Origin: Halobacteriales archaeon QS_5_70_17
Lineage (GTDB): Archaea > Halobacteriota > Halobacteria > Halobacteriales > Haloarculaceae
Assembly: GCA_003021975.1 (NCBI GenBank)
Contig: PXRR01000040.1
Span: forward strand, 29,335-73,192
Direction of reading: 5' to 3'
Length of the DNA: 43,858 nucleotides
Shown: positions 25,521-42,076 of the stretch, one piece after another
Layout: each line of letters opens with the position of its first letter
Position numbering within the stretch: the first letter of the stretch is position 1
Translations under genes and position numbers: made by a program
The notes under the pieces: model-generated
What the model was told of the DNA's origin: nothing
The model's database searches: none
What the model saw: only the letters and a program-made list of their open reading frames with translations

Positions 25521-26468
25521 ATGCGCATCGTCTCGCTGCTCCCGTCGGCGACCGAGATCGTCTACGCGCTCGGCCTCGAACCGGTCGCGGTCTCCCACGA
25601 GTGCGACTACCCCCCGGCGGCCGCGGAGAAACCCGCGGTCAACGAGACGCGGATCGACCCCGGGGCGACGAGCGCGGAGATCGATCGTCAGGTGCTCGAG
25701 GCCGAGCGCGAGGGCGCGGGCGTCTACCGGATCGACCTCGACGCGCTCGCGGCGGCCGACCCCGACCTGATCGTCACGCAGGGGCTGTGTGACGTCTGTG
25801 CCGTCGACCGGATCCTCGTCGAGGACGCCGTCGAGAAACTCGGTCTCGACTGCGAGGTCCTGACGACCGACCCCCACAGTCTCGGGGACGTCCTCGACGA
25901 CGTCGAGCGGATCGGCGCCGCAACCGGCCGAGCGGACCGCGCCGCCAGGCTCGTCGACGACCTGACCGCCCGGATCGACGCCGTTCGGGAGACGGCCGCC
26001 GGCGCCGACGCCCGTCCCCGGACGCTCGTCGTCGACTGGCTCGATCCCCTGATGACTGCGGGCCACTGGGTCCCCGAACTCGTCGAGATCGCCGGCGGCG
26101 AACCCGTCCTACCGGCGGAGGCGTCCACCCCCCGCCAGTGGGAGACGGTCCGAGCGACGGACCCCGAGGTACTGGTCGCGGCCCCCTGCGGGTTCGACCT
26201 CGACCAGACCGCGGAGAACCTCGGGGACCTGACCGACCGCCCCGGCTACGGCGACCTGGCCGCCGTCCGGGGGGACCGGGCGTACGCCGTCGACGGCCAC
26301 CAGTACCTCAACCGGCCGGGCGTGCGCCTGGTCGACTCCCTCGAGTTCCTCGCGGGCGTCGTCCACTCCGGCCGCTTCGAGGCGCCGCCGGCGTCGGCCG
26401 TCCGCCCGCTGGCCGACCTGCGCGGCGGGCGCGGCGAGCGCGAATCCGGCCCCGAACGCCCCGTCTGA
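25521..26468 (+). CDS. Cobalamin-binding protein, BtuF/TroA-like, without signal peptide
   Basis: A 315-residue substrate-binding fold of the BtuF type: RIVSLLPSATEIVYALGLE at the N-terminus, AVSHECDYPP, DLIVTQGLCDVCAVD, and a second lobe with VVDWLDPLMTAGHWVPELVEIAGGE and RGDRAYAVDGHQYLNRPG. It has no signal peptide or lipobox, so it may bind corrinoids in the cytoplasm or reach the membrane otherwise. A TATA-like gctttacc (25491-25498) lies 23-30 bases upstream of ATG 25521. No permease or ATPase of a B12 transporter follows. Its TGA stop overlaps the ATG of the JAMM protease gene (TGATG), implying coupled translation. Confidence 0.85.
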   Translation: MRIVSLLPSATEIVYALGLEPVAVSHECDYPPAAAEKPAVNETRIDPGATSAEIDRQVLEAEREGAGVYRIDLDALAAADPDLIVTQGLCDVCAVDRILVEDAVEKLGLDCEVLTTDPHSLGDVLDDVERIGAATGRADRAARLVDDLTARIDAVRETAAGADARPRTLVVDWLDPLMTAGHWVPELVEIAGGEPVLPAEASTPRQWETVRATDPEVLVAAPCGFDLDQTAENLGDLTDRPGYGDLAAVRGDRAYAVDGHQYLNRPGVRLVDSLEFLAGVVHSGRFEAPPASAVRPLADLRGGRGERESGPERPV

Positions 26469-26911
26469 TGGCCGGGACGCTATGGCTCCCGCCGGCGGTC
26501 CGCGAGCGGATCGTCGACCGCGCCCGCGAGGGCGCTCCCGAGGAGGTCTGTGGCGTCCTCGGCGGGCGGCGGACGGCCGACGGCGATCCGACCGTCGCAG
26601 TCGAGCGCGCCGATCCCGTCCCCAACGTCGCGAGCGCGCCCCGGACGACCTACGAACTCGACCCGGCGGCGCAACTGGAGGCGATGCGCGGCGTCGAAGC
26701 GGAGGGGCTGACGGTCGTCGGCTTCTATCACTCCCACCCCGAGGGCCCCCGGCGGCCGAGCGCGACCGACGAGGCGCGGGCGACCTGGCCAGGGCGCTCG
26801 TATCTGATCGTCGCGCTCGACGGCCCGGAGCCGTCCGTCGGGAGCTGGCGCTGGACCGGCGAGCGGTTCGTCGAGGAGCGCGTCCGCGTCGAGGACGGAC
26901 CGTCAGCCTAG
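26468..26911 (+). CDS. JAMM/MPN+ metalloprotease, candidate desampylase
   Basis: A 147-residue single-domain JAMM protein. It has the complete metalloprotease motif: Glu26 in PEEVCGVLGG, then FYHSHPEGPRRPSATD with His88, His90, Ser98 and Asp101 (H-S-H-P-x6-S-x2-D). In Haloferax, a protein of this type (HvJAMM1) removes ubiquitin-like SAMPs from target proteins. The gene directly converges on ubaA, the SAMP-activating E1, sharing the stop palindrome CTAG, which strengthens that reading. An alternative is a Mec/CysO-type peptidase cutting sulfur-carrier tails. It starts within the stop of the cobalamin-binding gene. Confidence 0.87.
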   Translation: MAGTLWLPPAVRERIVDRAREGAPEEVCGVLGGRRTADGDPTVAVERADPVPNVASAPRTTYELDPAAQLEAMRGVEAEGLTVVGFYHSHPEGPRRPSATDEARATWPGRSYLIVALDGPEPSVGSWRWTGERFVEERVRVEDGPSA

Positions 26912-27747
26912 TCGGCCCCGATCGAGCAGGTGTCGGCGTACTCCACGTCGTCGACCGACTGGATCGAGGGGTCATCGCCGCAGACCGGGCAGTCGGGGTT
27001 CTTGCGGATCTCGACATCCTCGAAGGTCATGTCGGAGGCGTCGTACAGCAACATCCGCCCGGCCAGCGTCTCGCCGTAGTCGAGCACGAGCTTCATCGCC
27101 TCGGTCGCCTGGATGCACCCCACGGTCCCGGGGAGGACGCCGAGCACGCCCGCCTCGGCACAGCTCGGCACCGACCCCGCCGGCGGGGCCTCCGGGAAGA
27201 GACAGCGGTAACACGGGGAGTCCTCCCGCGGGTCGACGGTCACCATCTGCCCCTCGAACCGGAGGATCGCGCCGTGGGAGAAGGGGACGCCCGCGAGCGT
27301 GCAGGCGTCGTTGACGAGGTAGCGCGTCTCGAAGTTGTCCGAGCCGTCGACGACGACGTCGTAGTCGTCGATCAGGGCCTCGGCGTTGTCGCTGGTGACC
27401 CGCGTCTCGTGGACCTCGACGTCGATGTCGGGGTTCTGTTCGGCGACGAACTCCTTCGCGGAGACGGCCTTCGGACGGCCGATGTCGTCGTCGCCGTGGA
27501 TGACCTGTCGCTGGAGGTTCGAGCGCTCGACGACGTCGTCGTCGGCGACGCCGAGGGTACCGACCCCCGCGGCCGCGAGATACTGGATGGCCGGCGACCC
27601 CAGCCCGCCGGCGCCGATACAGAGCACGCGGGCGTCGAGCAGCTCCTTCTGTCCTTCCGGTCCCACCTCGTCCATGATGATGTGCCGGGAGTACCGATCG
27701 AGCTGTTCGGGTCCCAGCGAGAGACCGCCGCCGTCGGTGTCGCTCAT
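26908..27747 (-). CDS. ubaA: SAMP-activating E1-like enzyme UbaA (MoeB/ThiF family)
   Basis: A 279-residue adenylyltransferase. ATP site: GAGGLGSPAIQYLAAAGVG (45-63) and DDDVVERSNLQRQ; Zn site: Cys179/Cys182 (CYRC) and Cys253/Cys256 (CPVC); likely catalytic Cys196 in PSCAEAGVLGVLPG. UbaA adenylates the C-terminal Gly-Gly of SAMP proteins, for protein conjugation, tRNA thiolation and molybdopterin synthesis. ATG 27747 is chosen because a TATA-like cttatactc lies 21-30 bases upstream; the longer frame is arginine-rich. No SAMP gene is seen in the window. Confidence 0.93.
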   Translation of the reverse strand: MSDTDGGGLSLGPEQLDRYSRHIIMDEVGPEGQKELLDARVLCIGAGGLGSPAIQYLAAAGVGTLGVADDDVVERSNLQRQVIHGDDDIGRPKAVSAKEFVAEQNPDIDVEVHETRVTSDNAEALIDDYDVVVDGSDNFETRYLVNDACTLAGVPFSHGAILRFEGQMVTVDPREDSPCYRCLFPEAPPAGSVPSCAEAGVLGVLPGTVGCIQATEAMKLVLDYGETLAGRMLLYDASDMTFEDVEIRKNPDCPVCGDDPSIQSVDDVEYADTCSIGAD

Positions 27748-29134: not shown

Positions 29135-30511
29135 ATGCAGCTCCGCGAGTTCCCGGTGCTGGGGGAGGACGACGACGGGCTGGTCGACCGGCTGGCGCTG
29201 GGGCTCGGCGAGGGGACCGCGCGCGTGCTCGCCTACCTCCTGCTCCGGGAGGGCCGGCCGGAGTTCGACGACCCCGCGACCCGGCTGGCGATCCGGATCG
29301 GGACCGGCGCGAGCCGGAGCGCCGTCACCGACGCCGTCGAGCGGCTGACCGACCGGGGGCTGGTCGCCGAGACGACCGTCTCCCGGGACGTCCGGGGTCG
29401 CCCGCCGAAGGCCTGGTCGCCCGCGGCTGGCCGCGAGGAGACGCTCCGGCGCGTCAACGACGCCCACGGCCTCGACCTCGTCGCCGAGGCGGTCCGCGTC
29501 GCCGAGGCACTCGGCGTCGACGCGCGGATCGACGCGCCGACCGACCCGACGGCGGGCGCGGGCGACTACCGGCGACTGGACGCCGGCGGCGCCTCCGTGA
29601 CCGTCGGACTGAACTGGCACCCCAACCCGTTTCACGCCCCGCTGTTCGCGGCCGCGGCCGACGGCGTCTACCGCGACCGGGGGCTGGCCGTCGACCTCGA
29701 TCCCTACGAGGGGTCGGGGAGGGCGCTCGGCGCGCTCCGGGCCGGCGACGTCGACGTCGCCCTCGCCGGGGCGGCGACCACCGTTCGGACGCTGGCCGAC
29801 GGCGCGGCGCTCGTCCCGCTGGCGCCGCTGTTCCAGCGGGCGATGACCGTCCTCTACACGACCCGCGAGGTCTTCGGCGAGGAACTCGAGCGGGCCGACC
29901 AGCTCCGTGGCTGCCGGGTCGGGATGCCCGGCGGCTCGGAGACGGAACTGCTCGGCCGGCTCTTCCTCTCGCAGTCCGGGCTGTTCGAGACCGCCACGCT
30001 CGTCGACGTCGCCGGCGAGGAGCGCGAGGCCCTGCGCACCGGCCGGGCCGACGCCGTGACGGGGATGTTCTCGGACCCGCGGGGGCTCGCCGACGAGGGC
30101 GCGACCGTCGACGTCCTCCCCGTCGCCGACCACTTCCCGATATACGGCCCGACGCTGGTGACGACCCCCGCGACGCTCCGGGACCGCGGGCCGGCGCTGG
30201 CGGCGCTGCTCGGCGCCGCGGTCGCCGGCCGGGCGACCGTGACCGCGGATCCGACGGCCGCCGTGCGGGCGGTGCACCGCCGGAGGACCGCCGGGACCGC
30301 CGGCGCCGGGAACGACGCGCTGGCGGCGGCCGGGAACGCGGGGACCGACCGGCGAGACGACCCGGCGGTCGAACGGGACCGCCGGGACCTGCTCGCGGCC
30401 GTCGAGCGGTTCGGCGGGGGCAGCGCCGTCAGCGACCACGGCTGGGGCTGGCACCGCGCGGAGGAGTGGCACCGCCTCCGGACGGCCCTCGATCAGGCGG
30501 ACCTGCTATGA
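29135..30511 (+). CDS. Winged-helix regulator fused to THI5/NMT1-like substrate-binding domain
   Basis: A 458-residue protein. Residues 25-96 are a winged helix (TARVLAYLLL, SRSAVTDAVERLTDRGLVAET, basic wing RDVRGRPPKAW). Residues 155 to the end are a THI5/NMT1-type binding domain: VGLNWHPNPFHAPLFAAAADGVYRDRGLAVDL, LYTTREVFGEEL, and the end GWGWHRAEEWHRLRTALDQADLL, which matches the end of the exported binding protein at 32808-33935 (GWGW..W...ALADADLL). No signal peptide, so it is cytoplasmic and likely senses the transported pyrimidine precursor and controls the transporter. GTG 29132 is an alternative start. Its stop overlaps the ATPase ATG (ATGA). Confidence 0.85.
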   Translation: MQLREFPVLGEDDDGLVDRLALGLGEGTARVLAYLLLREGRPEFDDPATRLAIRIGTGASRSAVTDAVERLTDRGLVAETTVSRDVRGRPPKAWSPAAGREETLRRVNDAHGLDLVAEAVRVAEALGVDARIDAPTDPTAGAGDYRRLDAGGASVTVGLNWHPNPFHAPLFAAAADGVYRDRGLAVDLDPYEGSGRALGALRAGDVDVALAGAATTVRTLADGAALVPLAPLFQRAMTVLYTTREVFGEELERADQLRGCRVGMPGGSETELLGRLFLSQSGLFETATLVDVAGEEREALRTGRADAVTGMFSDPRGLADEGATVDVLPVADHFPIYGPTLVTTPATLRDRGPALAALLGAAVAGRATVTADPTAAVRAVHRRRTAGTAGAGNDALAAAGNAGTDRRDDPAVERDRRDLLAAVERFGGGSAVSDHGWGWHRAEEWHRLRTALDQADLL

Positions 30512-31251
30512 TCGCCGTCGAGGACCTCACCGTCGCCTACGAGGACGTCGTCGCCGTCGAGGGGATCGACCTCTCGGTCGACGCGGGGCGGTTCGTCACG
30601 GTGATCGGCCCCTCGGGCTGTGGCAAGACGACGCTCCTGCGAGCGGTGGGCGGGCTGGAGACGCCCACCCGTGGGCGAGTCCGCGTCGACGGCGACCCCC
30701 CCGAGCGCGCCCAGCAGCGCGCCAACGTCGGCTTCGTCTTCCAGCGCCACACGCTCCTGCCCTGGAAGACGGCCCTCGAGAACGTCACCTTCCTGCGGCG
30801 GCTGGCGGGCAAGCCACCGGACCCGGACGGCGCCCGCGACCTGCTCGAACGCGCCGGCCTCGCGGGGTTCGCGGACGCCCGGCCGGCGGCGCTCTCCGGC
30901 GGGATGCGCCAGCGCGTCGCCATCGCCCGCGCGCTCCACCTCGGGGCCGACGTCCTCCTGATGGACGAGCCGTTCGGCGAACTCGACGAACTCACCCGCG
31001 AGACGATGGGCCTGGAGGTGCGCCGCGTCTGGCGGGGCGAGCGCAAGACGGTGCTGTTCGTCACCCACAGCGTCCCCGAGGCGGTGCTGCTCGGCGACCG
31101 GTGTGTCGTCGTCCGGGGCTCGCCCGGGCGGATCGTCGACTCGATCGACGTCGACCTGCCCCGCCCCCGCGACCGGGACGTGCTGGAGTCCGACCCGTTC
31201 CAGGAGCGGGTGGCGGCCGTCAGGGCCGCGCTCTCGGGAGGGGCGACGTGA
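30508..31251 (+). CDS. ABC transporter ATPase, nitrate/thiamine-precursor type (ThiZ-like)
   Basis: A 247-residue ABC ATPase. Walker A is GPSGCGKTT (34-42), Q-loop FVFQRHTLLPW, signature LSGGMRQRVAIARAL, Walker B VLLMDEPFGELD and switch His in VTHS. Its nearest family is the NrtD/SsuB/TauB/ThiZ importers. It is coupled both upstream (ATGA with the regulator) and downstream (GTGA with the permease). It is the only ATPase in the cluster, so it probably powers both permeases. Conserved PRPRDRDV near the C-terminus is common in this family. Confidence 0.93.
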   Translation: MIAVEDLTVAYEDVVAVEGIDLSVDAGRFVTVIGPSGCGKTTLLRAVGGLETPTRGRVRVDGDPPERAQQRANVGFVFQRHTLLPWKTALENVTFLRRLAGKPPDPDGARDLLERAGLAGFADARPAALSGGMRQRVAIARALHLGADVLLMDEPFGELDELTRETMGLEVRRVWRGERKTVLFVTHSVPEAVLLGDRCVVVRGSPGRIVDSIDVDLPRPRDRDVLESDPFQERVAAVRAALSGGAT

Positions 31252-32087
31252 GCCTCGCCGCCCGGACGCCGCGAGCGCCCGTGGTGTTGCCGCTGGCGGC
31301 CCTGGCGGTCGGCGTCGCGGTCTGGTGGCTCCTGTCGATCGCGCTCGCCCTCCCCGCGTACGTCCTCCCGCCGCCGACCGCGGTCGCCGACCGACTGGTC
31401 GCCAACCCGGACCTGTACGTCGCCAGCGCCCTGACGACGCTCCGCCGGATCGTCCTCGGGGGCGCGGTCGGCGTCCTCGTCGGGGCCGCCCTCGCGGTCG
31501 CCGTCGTCGAGGTCCGGTGGCTGCGGCGGGCGCTGGTGCCCTATCTCGTGGCCGCACGCGTCCTGCCGAAGATCGCCGTCGCGCCGGTGTTGCTCATCTA
31601 CGTCGGCACCGGCGAGGGGACGGGGATCGCCTTCGTCGCCCTCGTGGCGTTCTTCCCGATGGTCGTCAGCACCGTCGCCGGCCTCGAGGGCGTCCCCGAG
31701 GCCCACATGGACCTCCTCCGGTCGCTCGACGCCGGCCGACTGGCGACGCTGGTCCACCTGCGGGTCCCCCACGCCGTCCCGGACGCCTTCGCGGGGCTGA
31801 AGCAGTCGACGGCGCTGGCGGTCGTCGGCAGCGTGATCGCCGAGTGGCTCGTCTCCACCGAGGGACTGGGCGCGCTGATCCTGTTCGCCCTCGAGGACGT
31901 CCAGGTCGACGTGATGCTCGCCGCGCTCGCGGTGCTGTTCGCCGAGGGGCTGGCGCTGTACGGACTGGTGGTCGCGGCCGAGCGGCGGGTCGGCTGGAGC
32001 CAGACCGGCGGCGCTCCGGGCCCCGGTCAGGACCGGTCGGACGCCGCTGCCGCCGACCGCCGCTCCAGCCAGACCGGCGCGAGGTAG
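31248..32087 (+). CDS. ABC transporter permease (ThiX-like), copy 1
   Basis: A 279-residue membrane protein with about six helices. It has LPPPTAVADRLV after the first helix, and the coupling motif EGVPEAHMDLLRSLDAGRLATLVHLRVPHAVPDAFAGLK, the E-A-A-like loop touching the ATPase. It is of the SsuC/TauC/ThiX type. GTG 31248 overlaps the ATPase stop. The final 30 residues are hydrophilic and lie in DNA that also codes, on the other strand, for the C-terminus of permease copy 2 (61-base overlap). Confidence 0.9.
   Translation: MSLAARTPRAPVVLPLAALAVGVAVWWLLSIALALPAYVLPPPTAVADRLVANPDLYVASALTTLRRIVLGGAVGVLVGAALAVAVVEVRWLRRALVPYLVAARVLPKIAVAPVLLIYVGTGEGTGIAFVALVAFFPMVVSTVAGLEGVPEAHMDLLRSLDAGRLATLVHLRVPHAVPDAFAGLKQSTALAVVGSVIAEWLVSTEGLGALILFALEDVQVDVMLAALAVLFAEGLALYGLVVAAERRVGWSQTGGAPGPGQDRSDAAAADRRSSQTGAR
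31998..32079. repeat. 13-base direct repeat at convergent gene ends
   Basis: AGCCAGACCGGCG occurs at 31998-32010 and again at 32067-32079, within the overlapping 3' ends of the two permease genes. In the plus-strand permease it encodes Ser-Gln-Thr-Gly twice. A short duplication may have extended this tail. Confidence 0.5.
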
Positions 32088-32827
32088 AAGGCGATCCCCA
32101 GCGCCGCCAGGACGACCAGCGCGGCGTAGGTCTCGGCGGTTCGGAGGTCCGTGGAGGTCACGACCACGCGGTAGCCCAGGCCGGCGTCGAGCGTGACGAA
32201 CTCGGCGACGACCGCGCCGATCACCGACAGCGTCGCCGCCAGCTTCACGCCCGCGAAGACGCTCGGCGCGGCCGCGGGCACCCGCACTCGCAGGAAGACC
32301 GTCCGGTCGGGGGCCGCGACCGACCGCGCGAGGTCGAGGTACTCCCGGGGGACCGACCGCAGTCCACCGACGGAGGCGACCGTGACGGGAAAGAGCGTCA
32401 GCGTCGTCACGAGCAGCGCCCGGGCGGCGATCCCGCGGCCGAACCACAGGAACACGAGGGGGGCGACCGCGACCAGCGGCGCGACCCGCAGGCCGATCAC
32501 GTACGGCCGGACGACGGCCTCGACGGTCCGCGAGCGCACCATGCCGAAGGACAGCGGGACGCCGACGGCGATCCCCCCGAGCAGCCCGAGCGCCGCGGTG
32601 ACGCCGGTGACCAGCGCGTCGCCGAGCAGCGTCTCCCACGACGATCCGAGCGCCCCGAGCACGTCCAGCGGCGAGGGGAGGACGACCGTCGGCACGCCGA
32701 GCAGGACCGTCGCGGCGTGCCACCCGCTCACGACGAGCGCGAACAGGACCAGCGGCGGTCCGATCCAGTCGAGCCCCGGGAGGCGCGGCCGGCGCCTCCA
32801 GAGCCGGCTACCCGTCTCCGGCGACAT
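32027..32827 (-). CDS. ABC transporter permease (ThiX-like), copy 2
   Basis: A 266-residue membrane protein with about six helices. It has VVLPSPLDVLGALGSSWET, the coupling loop LRSVPREYLDLARSVAAPDRTVFLRVRVPAAAPSVFAGVKLA, and AETYAALVVLAALGIAFYL near the end. It is the same family as copy 1 but only moderately alike. ATG 32827 overlaps the binding-protein stop by 20 bases, so the pair is co-translated. There is no ATPase on this strand; the one at 30508 must serve, making a heterodimeric permease or alternative complexes likely. Confidence 0.88.
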   Translation of the reverse strand: MSPETGSRLWRRRPRLPGLDWIGPPLVLFALVVSGWHAATVLLGVPTVVLPSPLDVLGALGSSWETLLGDALVTGVTAALGLLGGIAVGVPLSFGMVRSRTVEAVVRPYVIGLRVAPLVAVAPLVFLWFGRGIAARALLVTTLTLFPVTVASVGGLRSVPREYLDLARSVAAPDRTVFLRVRVPAAAPSVFAGVKLAATLSVIGAVVAEFVTLDAGLGYRVVVTSTDLRTAETYAALVVLAALGIAFYLAPVWLERRSAAAASDRS

Positions 32828-33935
32828 CGGCGTACGAGCCGACGTACTCGTAGTCGCGGTCGAGGTAGTCGTTGGTCCACACCGAGGCGGGGTCGACCTC
32901 ACCCTCGAGCAGGTCGGCGTCGGCCAGCGCCCCGTGCATGGTCGTCCAGGGGTCCGGACTGCTCCACCCCCAGCCCTCCCGGCGAACGGTCTCCGAGAGC
33001 ACGAAGTCCTCGCTCATCAGCCTCCACTTGTCCCGCTGGCGGTCCCGGGACTCCTCCAGGGCGGGCACCGCCTCCACGAGGCGGTCGGTCGCCGCCTCGG
33101 GGTTGGCGGCGGCCCACGCGCTCCCGCGGGCGGTCGCCCGGAGGAACGCCCGGACGGTCGCGGGGTTCTCCTCGGCGAACGCCCCGTCGGTCGCGACGAC
33201 GTGGCCGTAGGAGGGGACCGCCGAGGCGACCCGCAGCAGGTCGACCGTCGGTCCCTCGTGGCGGGCGTCGACGACGTCGCCGAACACGCCCCCGGCAGCG
33301 TCGATCTCGCCCGAGAGCAACTGCTGGACGGTGTCGTAGCCGGTGTCAACCAGTTCGACGTCCCCGAGGACGCCCTCTTCCTCGAGCAGGAGCCTCGAGA
33401 GCAGGCGGACCATCCCCGGGCCGGTGCCCACGGTCGCGCCGGCGAGCTGCTCGGCGTCGGTCAGCTCCTCGCCGAACTCCTCGCGGACGGTGAAGAGGAC
33501 GACCGGGCTCTTCTGCATCACCACGCCGACCGACCGCGGGGAGAGTTCCCGGCTGTTGACGTTGAGCACTTGGTCGGCGCTGGTGATCCCGAAGGCGGTG
33601 TTGCCGAGGCCGACCTGCTTGGCCGAGAAGTCCGACCCCTGACCGCTCTCGATCTTCCCGACGGTCAATCCCTCGGCCTCGTAGAACCCCTCCGCCCGGG
33701 CGGCGTAGTAGGGGACGTGGAGGCCGCTGGGCTTCCAGTTCAACAGTAGCGACACCTCCGAGACCTCCGGCTCCGGTTCGGGGGTCGCCGTTTCGGTCGC
33801 CGTCGGCGTTGCCGTCGCCGCTCCGTCGCCCGCCGCCTCGGTCGGCGTTCCCCCCTCCGAGTCCGATCCGCCCAGACAGCCCGCCGCCGCCGTCACTCCC
33901 GCCGCCGCGAGGAACGCTCTCCGCGTTTTCTCCAT
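32808..33935 (-). CDS. ABC substrate-binding lipoprotein, THI5/NMT1-like (ThiY-like)
   Basis: A 375-residue exported protein. Its Tat lipoprotein signal has Arg5-Arg6 in KTRRAFLAAAGVTAAAGC with the lipobox Cys20, followed by a Thr/Pro/Glu-rich linker. The binding domain opens VSLLLNWKPSGLHVPYYAARAEGFYEAEGL, as in HMP-precursor binding proteins, and ends GWGWSSPDPWTTMHGALADADLL. It would capture a pyrimidine (HMP or formylaminopyrimidine) outside the cell; taurine- or nitrate-like ligands are alternatives. ATG 33935 is fixed by the Tat signal. A TATA-like ggtataaacg lies 47-56 bases upstream, giving a short leader. Confidence 0.9.
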   Translation of the reverse strand: MEKTRRAFLAAAGVTAAAGCLGGSDSEGGTPTEAAGDGAATATPTATETATPEPEPEVSEVSLLLNWKPSGLHVPYYAARAEGFYEAEGLTVGKIESGQGSDFSAKQVGLGNTAFGITSADQVLNVNSRELSPRSVGVVMQKSPVVLFTVREEFGEELTDAEQLAGATVGTGPGMVRLLSRLLLEEEGVLGDVELVDTGYDTVQQLLSGEIDAAGGVFGDVVDARHEGPTVDLLRVASAVPSYGHVVATDGAFAEENPATVRAFLRATARGSAWAAANPEAATDRLVEAVPALEESRDRQRDKWRLMSEDFVLSETVRREGWGWSSPDPWTTMHGALADADLLEGEVDPASVWTNDYLDRDYEYVGSYADVAGDG

Positions 33936-33981
33936 GGTCTCTGGTAACTGTGATCGTCCACTGATAAGTGATGCGGTGGAA

Positions 33982-33991
33982 CGTTTATACC
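33982..33991 (-). promoter_or_regulatory. Candidate TATA box for the binding-protein/permease operon
   Basis: Minus-strand ggtataaacg, 47-56 bases before ATG 33935; unlike most genes in the window this implies a leader of about 20-25 bases. The 120-base gap upstream of the gene has no visible TPP riboswitch. Confidence 0.5.
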
Positions 33992-34055: not shown

Positions 34056-34349
34056 TCAGGAGACGGTGAGGTCGTCCTCCTCGCGGGCGCCGTTGAACTC
34101 CAGTTCGATCTCGAGTTCCCCCTCGCGCTGGCTGACGAACTCGACTTCCACCTCGACGGGTTCGCGGTACTCGAAGGGAACCTCCCACTCCGTACTGGAG
34201 ACGGTGAGGTGAGTCCCCTCGTCGATCTGGTCGGCCAGTTCGCGGAGGAACGTCGCCGTCGCATCTCGCGAGAGGTGGACCTCCCGCTCGAAGTACCCCT
34301 CGGTCACCACGGTCCGTCCGTCCGACTCTTCGCCGGGTAGCTCCGCCAT
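34056..34349 (-). CDS. Amphi-Trp domain protein
   Basis: A 97-residue acidic protein with the amphi-Trp arrangement: helix EREVHLSRDATATFLRELADQI, then STEWEVPFEYREPVEVEVEFVSQ and ELEIELEF strands, a small beta-rich domain common in Halobacteria with unknown role. ATG 34349 is preferred to ATG 34376 because a TATA-like cttatgc (34373-34380) is centred about 28 bases upstream of it and overlaps the earlier ATG. Confidence 0.78.
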   Translation of the reverse strand: MAELPGEESDGRTVVTEGYFEREVHLSRDATATFLRELADQIDEGTHLTVSSTEWEVPFEYREPVEVEVEFVSQREGELEIELEFNGAREEDDLTVS

Positions 34350-34456
34350 ACCGTCCGGTTCGGCGCCCACCAGCATAAGCGATGGGAGTTAACACCAAGC
34401 GCGTCACCGCGACCCCCGGGAGTCAAGTCCTTCCCGCCCCGTGTATCCGCACTCAC

Positions 34457-34819
34457 ATGTCACTGTTCGACGTGCTCGGGAGCAAGGCCCGGCTACAGAT
34501 CCTCCAGGAGCTCTCCTCGGAGCCGCGGTACGTCTCCGAACTCGTCGAACGGGTCGGGATGGACGGCAAGACGGCGGTCCACCACCTCTCGGTGCTCGAG
34601 GAGGCCGGACTGGTCACGAGCTACCGGTCGAGCCGTCGGAAGTACTACCGGCTCGTCAAGACCGTCGAACTGCGCGCCGCGCCCAGCCCCGACCGGACCT
34701 TCGTCCTCCACGCCGAGGACGCGCTCCCCGGAGACGGCCCTCCGGAGGCCGAGTCTGGCGCGGAGGCGGTCGACGGACCAGCCGACGCCAGCGCCGGGGC
34801 CGCCGCCGACGACGGCTGA
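34457..34819 (+). CDS. ArsR-type winged-helix transcription regulator
   Basis: A 120-residue regulator: LFDVLGSKARLQILQELSSEPRYVSEL, GMDGKTAVHHLSVLEEAGLVTSY, wing RSSRRKYYRLVKTVEL. This is the ArsR/HTH_20 type common in haloarchaea. The metal-binding Cys motif of ArsR proper is absent. After residue 85 there is an acidic Ala/Gly-rich tail without fold. ATG 34457 gives the helix start directly; the longer frame adds no family sequence. Targets unknown; the divergent amphi-Trp gene or convergent exchanger are candidates. Confidence 0.85.
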   Translation: MSLFDVLGSKARLQILQELSSEPRYVSELVERVGMDGKTAVHHLSVLEEAGLVTSYRSSRRKYYRLVKTVELRAAPSPDRTFVLHAEDALPGDGPPEAESGAEAVDGPADASAGAAADDG

Positions 34820-39203: not shown

Positions 39204-40916
39204 TCAGGCCGACATCGAGAAGACCGCCAGCCGGTCGTCGCGCGGGCCGCGACGGAGCCAGCCGCTGCCGCCGATCTGGATGGCGACGTACTGCTTCTCG
39301 GTGCCGGGGTCGTACCAGCTCACCGGGCTCGAGGAGATGGCCTTGTCGCCGGTGTCGAACTCCCAGAGCCGGTCGCCGGTCTCGCCGTCGTAGGCGATGA
39401 AGTCGCCGTTCTGCGTGCCGGCGAACATCAGTCCCTCCGTCGTCGACATCGTGCCGCCCCAGAGGTAGGTCTCGCTGTCGATCCAGTCGCGCCAGACGCG
39501 CTCGCCGGTCGCCGGATCGAGGGCCGTGATCGAGGCGATGTGGCCGTTGTACTCGTCGGGCATCGCCTCGGTCTCGTCCTCGAGGATGCCGCCCCAGTAC
39601 TTCTTGCCCTCCTCGAACTCCTCGAAGCGCCACCAGGCCTCCTGGGCGTTGTTGTGCATCTTGTAGTAGATGAGGCCGGTCTCGTGGCAGTAGGTCGGCG
39701 GCTGCCAGTCGTTGCCGCCCATCCCGCCGGGCATGAACGTCCCGCGGCGCCCCTCGTCGATGTGCGGGATCATGCTGAACATGTTCAGCTGCTGGACGGC
39801 CGGCTCGGAGCGCTCGATGAGCTGGCCGGTCTCGGCGTCGACGGTGTACGCCCACCCGGTCTTGCCGGCGTCGACGACGACGTCCTTGGTCTGGTTGCGG
39901 TGTCCGATTTCCAGGTCCTCGATGTACACCCGCGGACACGCGGAGTCGTAGTCCCAGACGTCGTGGGGCGACTCCTGGTGGAACCAGAGCCGCTCGCCCG
40001 TCTCGGCGTCGAGACAGAGCGTCCCCGCCGTGTTGCGGTTCGGTCCCGGCCGGACCGATCCGTCGAAGTCCGGGCCGGGGTTGCCGATCGGCATGTAGAG
40101 GCGGTCGCGCTCCTCGTCGTAGGTGGCGGTCATCCAGTTGGTGCCCGCCGCCTGGCTGATCGAGTCGCCGACCCACTCCTCCTCGGGGCAGGTGCGGGTG
40201 AACCACTTCTCGTCGCCGGTCTCGGCGTCGATGGCGGTGTGGAACCCGCGCACGCCGTACTCGCCGCCGGCGCTGCCGGTGTAGATCGTCCCCTCGTGGA
40301 CGATCGGCGCCCACGTCGCCGAGTAGCCCCGCTCGTGGTCGGCCGTGGAGTGGTACCACTGCTCCTCGCCGGTGTAGCGGTCGAGCGCGACGACCCCCGA
40401 GTCGAGGGTCATCATGTAGACCTTGTCCTGCCAGACGGCCACCCCGCGGTTGTTGTCGTCACAGCACAGCATGACGTCCGAGGGGACGGCGTAGGTGTAG
40501 CTCCAGAGCACCTCGCCCTCCCGCGGGTCGATGGCCTTGAGGTGGTTGGGGCCGTTGGACTGGTACATGATCGGCGGATCGCCGGGAACGATCACCGGCG
40601 ATCCCTCCATGCTCGACCCCGCGCCGACGTGCATCTCGTACTCGAGTTCGAGATCCGAGACGTTGTCCTTCGTGATGACGTCGGCGGTCGTGTAGCGGTG
40701 CTGCTTGTAGCCGCCCCCGTACATCAGCCACGCTTCCTCGTTCTCGGCCGAGTCGCTCAGCATCTCCTGGGTGACGTCCTCCTCGGGGATGCGATCGATG
40801 TCGTGCTGGTGGGTGACTGACTTGTCGGGAGATCCCAGTACTCGATACCCGTTGTCCGTTTCTCGAACGACCGTGTCCTGTGCGGCCTTGACGGCCCTGT
40901 CTTCTTCAATTGACAT
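39204..40916 (-). CDS. PQQ-dependent alcohol dehydrogenase-like quinoprotein, lanthanide-type motif, no signal peptide
   Basis: A 570-residue eight-bladed propeller protein with several blade motifs such as AIDAETGDEKW, CLDAETGERLW and ALDPATGERVW. It keeps the methanol/ethanol dehydrogenase active site: vicinal Cys151-Cys152, metal Glu219 (GSAGGEYGVRG), metal Asn279 (GNPGP), catalytic Asp322 and a second Asp324 (WDYDSA). Asp at +2 marks lanthanide-dependent enzymes such as XoxF. It should oxidise an alcohol with PQQ, but there is no Sec/Tat signal, unusual for the class. The ATG is ten bases after an unknown gene (40927-41841), so they form an operon. No PQQ synthesis genes or cytochrome are seen. 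Confidence 0.85.
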   Translation of the reverse strand: MSIEEDRAVKAAQDTVVRETDNGYRVLGSPDKSVTHQHDIDRIPEEDVTQEMLSDSAENEEAWLMYGGGYKQHRYTTADVITKDNVSDLELEYEMHVGAGSSMEGSPVIVPGDPPIMYQSNGPNHLKAIDPREGEVLWSYTYAVPSDVMLCCDDNNRGVAVWQDKVYMMTLDSGVVALDRYTGEEQWYHSTADHERGYSATWAPIVHEGTIYTGSAGGEYGVRGFHTAIDAETGDEKWFTRTCPEEEWVGDSISQAAGTNWMTATYDEERDRLYMPIGNPGPDFDGSVRPGPNRNTAGTLCLDAETGERLWFHQESPHDVWDYDSACPRVYIEDLEIGHRNQTKDVVVDAGKTGWAYTVDAETGQLIERSEPAVQQLNMFSMIPHIDEGRRGTFMPGGMGGNDWQPPTYCHETGLIYYKMHNNAQEAWWRFEEFEEGKKYWGGILEDETEAMPDEYNGHIASITALDPATGERVWRDWIDSETYLWGGTMSTTEGLMFAGTQNGDFIAYDGETGDRLWEFDTGDKAISSSPVSWYDPGTEKQYVAIQIGGSGWLRRGPRDDRLAVFSMSA

Positions 40917-40926
40917 TGTATTGTAG

Positions 40927-41841
40927 TTATCTCGCTTCGCTGGGAGCGCGCATCTCGTCGGTAATCCGATACGCGTCCCGGCAGACCTCTTCCTGATTGA
41001 TGATCGCGATCGCAGCACCCGCGGACAGCGCCGCGGTCAACTGGTTGTCGTCGAGCGATTCCTCCTCGTCGTCGGCGACTTCGAGGGCGCCTCTCGTCAT
41101 GAGGTACAGCCCGCCGAGCATCGCCTTGACGTCCCAGTAGGCGTCGTCGAGGATCTCCTCGGTGATGAGCACCTGCTTCTGCCAGAGGTGGACGTCGAGG
41201 GTTCTGATCCAGAGCAGCGCGCCGCCCATCGCCCGCTGGTAGAGCGGCGGTACGTCCTCGACGTTGAACTCCACGCCCTCCGGAATCTCGGTGGTCGGGA
41301 CCCACCGGGCCAGCCGGGTGTCGTTGTTTGTCACGCTCGCGACGAGCGCGGTCTGCTCGCGGTCGTCGAACCCGGCGTCGGTCAACTCTCCGGTCAGGTC
41401 GTCGGACTCGATGAGAGTCCGCGCGGTGTCCTTGATGTGATCGGACGTGAACCGCGGAGAGTTGACGTCGACGCTCTCGAAGAAGCCGACCTCGAGCAGG
41501 TGGTCGTACACCCGCCAACCGGGCGCGGCTACCTCGCGGTAGAGCTCCTCCGGTTCACGGTCACCGTCGGGGATTCCCTTCTCCCTGACCTCGGGGAGTC
41601 GCTCGATCCGTTCGGCGATGTTCCGGAGTTCCCGTTCGAGGAGTTCGGCGTCGAGTCTCCCCTCCAGGTCGCTCCGTACTGCCTCCCCGAGGGATGCGAA
41701 CGCCGGATCGGCGCTCGCCTCGACGGCGTCGCTCATCTCCGCGAGCGACAGGGAATCGCCGCTCTCCTCGTCGATACCGAGCGTCTTTGCCAGTTGCCGC
41801 TGTTCCTCGGGCGTCACCTGTGGCGTGCTCCCATCGGCCAT
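40927..41841 (-). CDS. Unknown helical protein, operon partner of the quinoprotein
   Basis: A 304-residue acidic protein I do not recognise. It has an N-terminal helical region (LSLAEMSDAVEASADPAFASL), a middle with DVNSPRFTSDHIKDTARTLIES, VTNNDTRLARWVPTTEIPEG, and a C-terminal helical half with moderately hydrophobic stretches (YQRAMGGALLWIRTLDVHLW, YWDVKAMLGGLYLMTRGALEV, LTAALSAGAAIAIINQEEV). No signal peptide and no convincing transmembrane helix. It precedes the quinoprotein gene by ten bases and is the first gene of the operon, so it is likely a chaperone, subunit or membrane tether for it. A TATA-like gctatatcatg (41872-41882) lies 31-41 bases upstream. Confidence 0.75.
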   Translation of the reverse strand: MADGSTPQVTPEEQRQLAKTLGIDEESGDSLSLAEMSDAVEASADPAFASLGEAVRSDLEGRLDAELLERELRNIAERIERLPEVREKGIPDGDREPEELYREVAAPGWRVYDHLLEVGFFESVDVNSPRFTSDHIKDTARTLIESDDLTGELTDAGFDDREQTALVASVTNNDTRLARWVPTTEIPEGVEFNVEDVPPLYQRAMGGALLWIRTLDVHLWQKQVLITEEILDDAYWDVKAMLGGLYLMTRGALEVADDEEESLDDNQLTAALSAGAAIAIINQEEVCRDAYRITDEMRAPSEAR

Positions 41842-42076
41842 TGAATCACCACGTTACTAGGTAGTCTGTCTCATGATATAGCTTGCCAAAGACCTATAAC
41901 ATCTTTAGAATAACATTTTATGTAAACATGTAGTCCTATCAAAACTCGCGGACTGTAGATGTGTTGAAATTTATAATATGTAGAATATTACATTTCCCGG
42001 GTTCCGATCGACCGCCGGCCGCTCGCGGGACGTTGATTTATGCCCGTCGGGTGGTGAGTGGGGGTATCACCGAACG
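41842..42076. promoter_or_regulatory. AT-rich divergent promoter region with repeated ATGTA motifs
   Basis: 235 bases between the quinoprotein operon and cdc48. From about 41870 to 41997 it is AT-rich, rare in this window. It holds a TATA-like element for the operon (41872-41882), several ATGTA motifs (41920-41932 and near 41957 and 41979) and the inverted repeat TGTA-N6-TACA at 41979-41992. A TATA-like gatttatg (about 42034-42041) lies about 40 bases before cdc48. No gene seen. Confidence 0.6.
41979..41992. promoter_or_regulatory. Candidate operator, TGTA-N6-TACA inverted repeat
   Basis: TGTAGAATATTACA is an imperfect palindrome inside the AT-rich region between the quinoprotein operon and cdc48. 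Its form suits a dimeric winged-helix or HTH regulator; no regulator gene adjoins it, so the link is a guess. Confidence 0.35.

Follow-up and report, generated by a model that had tools for sequence, protein, structure and literature searches.

A haloarchaeal winged-helix protein sharing an NMT1/THI5-type domain with an adjoining ABC transporter: a conserved family and a candidate regulator of quinoprotein metabolism

We analysed a stretch of 43,858 nucleotides from the genome of Halobacteriales archaeon QS_5_70_17 (assembly GCA_003021975.1, contig PXRR01000040.1, positions 29,335 to 73,192), hereafter called the window; positions are those of the window unless a locus is named. The gene at 29135-30511, next to the genes of an ATP-binding cassette (ABC) transporter, encodes a protein that we refer to as the regulator. 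Sequence comparison supports the view that this is a cytoplasmic protein in which a DNA-binding-type domain is joined to one related by descent to the exported binding protein of the adjoining transporter, that its gene forms part of the operon of this transporter, and that it belongs to a conserved family. We give an even chance to the more specific reading that it acts in the cytoplasm as a one-component transcription regulator for a haloarchaeal quinoprotein system, sensing pyrroloquinoline quinone (PQQ) or a relative of it that is imported by the transporter.

The regulator gene lies on the + strand and codes for 458 amino acids, comprising a winged helix (about residues 1-96), a linker helix (100-125) and an NMT1/THI5-type binding domain (153-458), without an export signal. 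The AlphaFold2 model (pLDDT 91.8, pTM 0.91) showed a winged helix, an extended linker helix and a domain with two lobes; in the model, the helices of the winged helix span residues 11-24, 26-39, 50-57 and 61-73 and the wing spans residues 77-96. A DNA-binding-type and a ligand-type domain are thus predicted to be fused in one confident model, as in one-component regulators. In Pfam and NCBIfam scans the N-terminal winged helix gave weak MarR/TrmB/MreA-type matches under the cut-off, and no LysR helix-turn-helix (HTH) or LysR substrate domain was found in the protein at an E-value of 0.1 or better; at the same level, the Pfam scan found no ThiN domain. The wing region carries a GRP motif in all 59 relatives of the regulator. 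None of these 59 proteins has a twin-arginine/lipobox start, so that the export signal of ABC solute-binding proteins is missing, whereas all 37 adjoining lipoproteins have one, their start codons having been chosen by a script favouring the RR motif.

The solute-binding protein of the transporter is a twin-arginine translocation (Tat) lipoprotein of 375 amino acids (32808-33935, - strand), with an RR motif and a lipobox cysteine at residue 20. In a BLASTP comparison with the regulator, 98 of 307 positions were identical (32%, E-value 2e-26). A profile-profile comparison of the two families, which used 25 regulator and 18 lipoprotein members and thus part of those found, gave a probability of 100 (E-value 1.6e-46, 290 columns). 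Both proteins are members of Pfam NMT1 (PF09084, cut-off 20.5), with 87.9 bits for the regulator and 112.9 bits for the lipoprotein. In the archaeon's own genome, the regulator had two other matches at an E-value of 0.01 or better, one to a signal-less protein on contig 52 (2.5e-27) and one to the lipoprotein (4.4e-26). Since the pairwise, family-profile, Pfam and own-genome matches agree, we ascribe the likeness of the two proteins to homology and not to chance. A preliminary description of the window, made from its sequence, had reported a winged helix followed by a THI5/NMT1-type domain that matches the Tat lipoprotein along its length, with a GWGW...W...AL pattern at both C-termini, and this description was borne out. 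As GWG...W...L, the pattern is conserved in both families (regulator G436, W437, G438, W445 and L452; lipoprotein G321, W322, G323, W330 and L337). The fold matches of the two proteins have 3ix1 and 4nmy in common: Foldseek placed 3ix1, which binds N-formyl-4-amino-5-aminomethyl-2-methylpyrimidine (FAMP), and the thiamin-binding 4nmy at the top for the regulator, with Thi5 structures among its best fold matches, and 4nmy, 3ix1 and Thi5 at the top for the lipoprotein.

Further solute-binding-type genes were found in a second recurrent cluster. It consists of three consecutive signal-less genes (cytA, cytB and cytC), together with cupin and VOC genes and often an aldehyde ferredoxin oxidoreductase (AOR)-type gene; examples are L094:1001-3824, on contig 52 of the archaeon's own genome, and L038:3148-6004. 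For the cytB protein tried, the PqqT entries 9b1u and 9b1v were the only PDB relatives at an E-value of 1 or better (best 3e-25). The KNW of the LDKNW segment that aligns with PqqT was kept in 29 of 29 cytB proteins, none of which has a signal-like start. Entry 9B1V is described as PqqT with PQQ and Gd (PMC12828617).

A tree of 59 rows, made by a quick method without bootstrap and with an outgroup on long branches, placed the regulator domains (24), the lipoproteins (14) and the cytC proteins (18) in one clade each. Lipoprotein and cytC joined at a Shimodaira-Hasegawa-like approximate likelihood ratio (SH-aLRT) of 96, with the regulator domain apart. The preliminary description had proposed that the regulator was built by duplicating the binding protein; the separate clades and the grouping of the lipoprotein with cytC weigh against a recent duplication. 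The sensor domain is better seen as at best an old relative, a distant paralogue of the capture protein of the importer. The accompanying proposal that both domains take the same ligand fared similarly: 27 positions are conserved and identical in the two families (85% in each), but at 9 others each family conserves a residue of its own, as at E269, E295, E296 and P339 of the regulator.

Searches with the winged-helix part of the regulator alone (residues 1-127) found the family in 59 of 391 Halobacteria genomes, with one copy each and all in open frames of at least 420 codons. A broad contig scan of low sensitivity, the only search made beyond the Halobacteria, found just 2 loci with the regulator, both archaeal. 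The ATPase gene directly follows the regulator in 40 of the 59 loci, and no ATPase match was present there in the other 19. The commonest order is regulator, ATPase and permease A, followed by the convergent permease B and lipoprotein genes. In two of the 19 loci (L046 and L080) a signal-less NMT1 gene, a Tat lipoprotein gene and a double-length permease gene are arranged divergently from the regulator.

The lipoprotein was present in 47 of the 391 genomes (at least 370 bits) and cytC in 55; eight more genomes had weaker matches to the lipoprotein query, and by position all eight were cytC. Regulator and lipoprotein occur together in 42 genomes (Fisher 6e-37) and regulator and cytC in 45 (Fisher 1e-36), values that ignore the relatedness of the genomes and are hence inflated. 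cytC was found in 16 of the 17 regulator genomes without lipoprotein; the exception, G029, has a regulator with a shortened domain. Conversely, the regulator was absent from 5 lipoprotein genomes and 10 cytC genomes. A search with a full-length relative as the query found only lipoprotein or cytC in 14 of these 15, and in G193, where cytC has an internal stop, also a regulator fragment. Two loci stand apart. The regulator relative of G029 (L055:8924-10078) has lost a large part of its binding domain; its genome gave no matches to lipoprotein, cytC, ArsR or quinoprotein, and the gene looks like a relic. At L058:7115-10029 the regulator adjoins an apparent lipoprotein gene fragment and a partial ATPase match, which looks like decay of the transporter with the regulator retained.

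The window also contains a gene for a quinoprotein (PQQ-type) alcohol dehydrogenase-like protein (39204-40916, - strand) without a signal peptide. It scored 180.6 bits with Pfam PQQ (cut-off 26.7) and 370.8 bits with TIGR03075, below the cut-off of 480.05. The vicinal cysteines and catalytic aspartate of such enzymes are present, in a CCD motif from residue 151 and an HDVWDYD motif from residue 318. Its nearest solved relative is 6zcv, a quinoprotein ethanol dehydrogenase that we take to be PedH, in which the vicinal cysteine pair and the aspartate two residues past the catalytic one are aligned. Among 35 clustered quinoproteins, 33 have HD.WDYD and 30 the CCD motif. Asp-Tyr-Asp is described as common to lanthanide-dependent methanol dehydrogenases (PMC7300363).

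The system, taken as regulator, lipoprotein or cytC, occurs in 74 genomes. At a threshold of E 1e-60 or better the quinoprotein was present in 66 of these, and in none of 80 tested among the 317 others. It was found in 55 of the 59 regulator genomes, and its gene lies within 20 kb of 45 of the 59 regulators. The contrast between genomes with and without the system was also seen in 10 of 11 listed mixed genera (exception g4, through G037); in g19 and g35, 11 of 13 and 2 of 4 system genomes, respectively, had the quinoprotein. A search for PqqC gave no match in the 74 system genomes, but it stayed silent in its 14 control genomes as well and hence does not bear on PQQ synthesis. Gene content points, indirectly, to PQQ or something tied to quinoprotein metabolism as a better lead than thiamine.

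PQQ is named as the candidate ligand because of this co-occurrence and of the PqqT-like cytB. The transporter would import PQQ, a PQQ-metal complex or a close relative, and the signal-less cytA, cytB and cytC would hold it or hand it on in the cytoplasm. The regulator would read the cytoplasmic PQQ level through its venus-flytrap domain, the closing of which on the ligand would move the winged helix on or off the DNA. Several points weigh against this reading. In sequence and fold, both the regulator domain and the lipoprotein domain have thiamin-, FAMP- and THI5-type proteins as their closest relatives, and PqqT ranks far lower in the Foldseek lists (24, 25 and 28 for the regulator; 29, 30 and 32 for the lipoprotein). 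The quinoprotein was not matched in 8 of the 74 system genomes (G029, G037, G090, G107, G151, G163, G193 and G280); since the regulator locus of G107 nevertheless holds a clustered quinoprotein relative, the E-value filter undercounts quinoproteins. A conserved operator of the regulator was not found, the motif search in 50-bp upstream regions giving mainly the TATA box, and the Fisher values are inflated, as said above. Moreover, co-occurrence does not name the ligand, and the alcohol substrate of the quinoprotein would fit equally.

That last point leads to a substrate-induced catabolic system, in which the alcohol substrate of the quinoprotein, or a precursor of it, serves as the ligand, AOR-type enzymes complete the oxidation and the regulator is an inducer-sensing activator or repressor. 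The recurrence of quinoprotein, AOR-type, VOC and cupin genes near the cyt cluster and the regulator would be expected of such a system, but it leaves the PqqT-like cytB and the three cytoplasmic binding proteins unexplained, and we consider it unlikely. Still less probable is the thiamine-precursor sensor implied by the preliminary description, which had named hydroxymethylpyrimidine (HMP), FAMP or thiamine as the ligand: lipoprotein and regulator would bind one of these, and the regulator would shut the transporter when the ligand is plentiful inside. In its favour, both proteins have 3ix1, 4nmy and Thi5 as their best matches in the PDB and by fold, E295 of the regulator and D201 of the lipoprotein align at or beside an acid of 3ix1, and the window holds a ThiF (E1-like) Pfam family gene (26908-27747). 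However, none of the other 81 loci has a clustered relative of this gene, and the ThiF family also includes MoeB/UbaA-type proteins. No other thiamine-named family was found among the neighbours scanned with Pfam, most neighbours being outside the scan. Nor does thiC track the system. Its family (PF01964) occurs in 232 of the 391 genomes and is absent from 18 of the 59 regulator genomes, against 159 of 391 overall, so that there is no pattern of complementation and a thiamine link through gene loss was rejected. The link to the quinoprotein is not predicted by a thiamine sensor either, and despite the thiamin/FAMP-type fold we regard thiamine as the less likely ligand. A degenerate or enzymatic THI5-like domain without a sensing role can hardly be credited. 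Thi5 structures do rank high in the fold search, but CCCFC, the iron motif of the THI5 HMP phosphate synthase, is not present in the regulator, the sole cysteine of which is C260; furthermore, an alignment of 25 relatives shows no variation at N160, W161 and E295 and at least 90% conservation of H167.

The regulation of the transporter was approached through a 28-bp palindrome-like motif, learned on 43 cytA promoters of regulator genomes. Scores of at least 15 were obtained for 52 of 52 cytA promoters (including the 43 of the training set) and 13 of 40 lipoprotein promoters (a group not used for training), for none of the 59 regulator promoters and for 1 of 974 control promoters; the single scoring control lies upstream of a gene divergent from a lipoprotein gene and so in the same intergenic stretch. 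The top score of the window was at the lipoprotein promoter (33963-33990, 15.9 on the + strand; 11.4 on the - strand at 33962-33989), in a site that ends 27 bp before the lipoprotein ATG. Many lipoprotein promoters of a group that we take to be Natrialbales-type scored near or below zero. None of the regulator promoters exceeded 8.8, and two were above 0. With a second model (27 sites, own sites included), a genome-wide search, the filters of which lose weak matches, found sites with E-values of at most 1 in 36 of the 60 genomes. In the archaeon's own genome it found one site at the cytA promoter and one at the lipoprotein promoter. By coordinates, all 23 distinct sites at E <0.044 (including the G143 site, at 0.0442) lie upstream of cytA or lipoprotein genes; weaker matches occur elsewhere, and 2 of 12 genomes without regulator, lipoprotein and cytC have one. 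At the quinoprotein promoter of the window the motif was weak, with 10.0 bits on the + strand (41895-41922) and 1.5 on the strand of the gene, and it reached 7.6 at L053, L061 and L066; a site there was not accepted.

A candidate binder is the ArsR-type winged-helix protein encoded at 34382-34819 (+ strand, start at 34382 or 34457), a gene that tracks the quinoprotein system across genomes. Of the genomes tested for ArsR-type matches, some of which run across a stop codon, 24 of 25 with the regulator had one, as did 8 of 10 with cytC but without regulator and 2 of 40 controls. The cytA promoters of nine regulator-less genomes kept the motif: eight, all with the ArsR-type gene, scored 25.9-37.5, and G037, without it, 18.5. 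Because cytA promoters keep the motif in genomes that have ArsR but not the regulator, the ArsR-type protein is a likelier binder of the palindrome, at lipoprotein and cytA promoters alike, than the regulator, although the fit is imperfect. The palindrome, of which no clear copy was found at the 59 regulator promoters, is therefore not our leading candidate for the operator of the regulator. The ligand feedback circuit that the preliminary description placed on the gene of the binding protein is plausible, but these two points weaken it. We come just short of an even chance for an arrangement, compatible with the PQQ-sensing reading, in which the ArsR-type protein controls the transporter through the palindrome and the regulator acts elsewhere, on the quinoprotein genes or its own operon. 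Several observations fit it less well. The score of G037 is still above all but one of the 974 controls. Of the five lipoprotein genomes without regulator, G090 and G280 had their lipoprotein promoters scored and do not have the motif there, and G274 and G374 have no genome-wide match, as would be expected if the regulator binds; three of these are also without ArsR, however, while G374 has ArsR and no match. The regulator also stands directly before the ATPase gene in most loci. In G191, which has both regulator and ArsR, a separate lipoprotein promoter scored -17.2.

The remaining genes of the window are as follows. The ATPase gene (30508-31251, + strand) overlaps the stop of the regulator by ATGA, and permease A (31248-32087, + strand) overlaps the ATPase gene by GTGA. 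Permease B (32027-32821, - strand) is convergent with permease A and may start a few codons further up, at 32827. Between the lipoprotein and ArsR genes the Pfam scan found an Amphi-Trp domain protein (34056-34376, - strand), with relatives in 30 of the 82 loci with gene calls. Beside the quinoprotein lies a partner gene (40927-41841, - strand) without a Pfam match; relatives in some genomes have a Tat-like start, which in the window copy is degenerate and not a signal. The small gene at 26468-26911, beside the ThiF-family gene, is JAMM-protease-like by eye, and we take the pair (26468-27747) to be possible genes for conjugation of the small archaeal modifier protein (SAMP) type.

The predicted architecture of the regulator can be compared with several known systems. 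In LacI/GalR and LysR-type regulators an HTH is joined to a periplasmic-binding-protein-type sensor for one-component ligand sensing; these have binding domains of other families and other DNA-binding parts, and neither family appeared in the Pfam and NCBIfam scans. Archaeal ThiR/ThiN repressors share their ligand domain with another protein, but the regulator has no ThiN domain. In the CmpC/NrtC ATPases of cyanobacterial bicarbonate and nitrate transporters a binding-type domain is fused to the ATPase, in the regulator to a DNA-binding-type domain; structures of the CmpC regulatory domain (9uai and 9uak) were fold matches of the regulator at ranks 43 and 49. The proteins to which the sensor domain and the lipoprotein are most similar in fold and sequence, the ThiY/FAMP-binding, thiamin-binding and THI5 proteins, are exported binders or an enzyme without a DNA-binding domain, whereas the genomic context of the regulator is the quinoprotein. 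PqqT, too, was matched by the regulator domain in the fold search; it is described as periplasmic in Methylobacterium (PMC12124388), in contrast to the signal-less cytB. In the titles and abstract openings searched, with few subscription journals among them, no haloarchaeal PQQ regulator and no winged helix-NMT1 regulator was found.

The tentative extension of these findings, to which we give somewhat less than an even chance, is that haloarchaea possess a full cytoplasmic uptake system for PQQ, perhaps as a lanthanide complex, made up of an ABC importer, three handlers of the solute-binding fold, two regulators, one of them sensing PQQ by a domain akin to the capture protein of the importer, and a cytoplasmic lanthanide-type quinoprotein alcohol dehydrogenase as the user of PQQ. 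If so, we know of no earlier cytoplasmic PQQ sensor, nor of an earlier ABC importer that brings PQQ into a cytoplasm. In one gene neighbourhood, one binding fold appears to be used in three ways: for capture outside, signal-less inside and as part of a protein with a DNA-binding-type domain. Archaeal genomes are described as rarely carrying PQQ dehydrogenases (PMC7300363). If the ligand is PQQ, the system would show how quinoprotein-using archaea obtain and sense a cofactor that is usually handled in the bacterial periplasm. The signal-less Asp-Tyr-Asp quinoprotein makes cytoplasmic lanthanide-type enzymology in haloarchaea testable.

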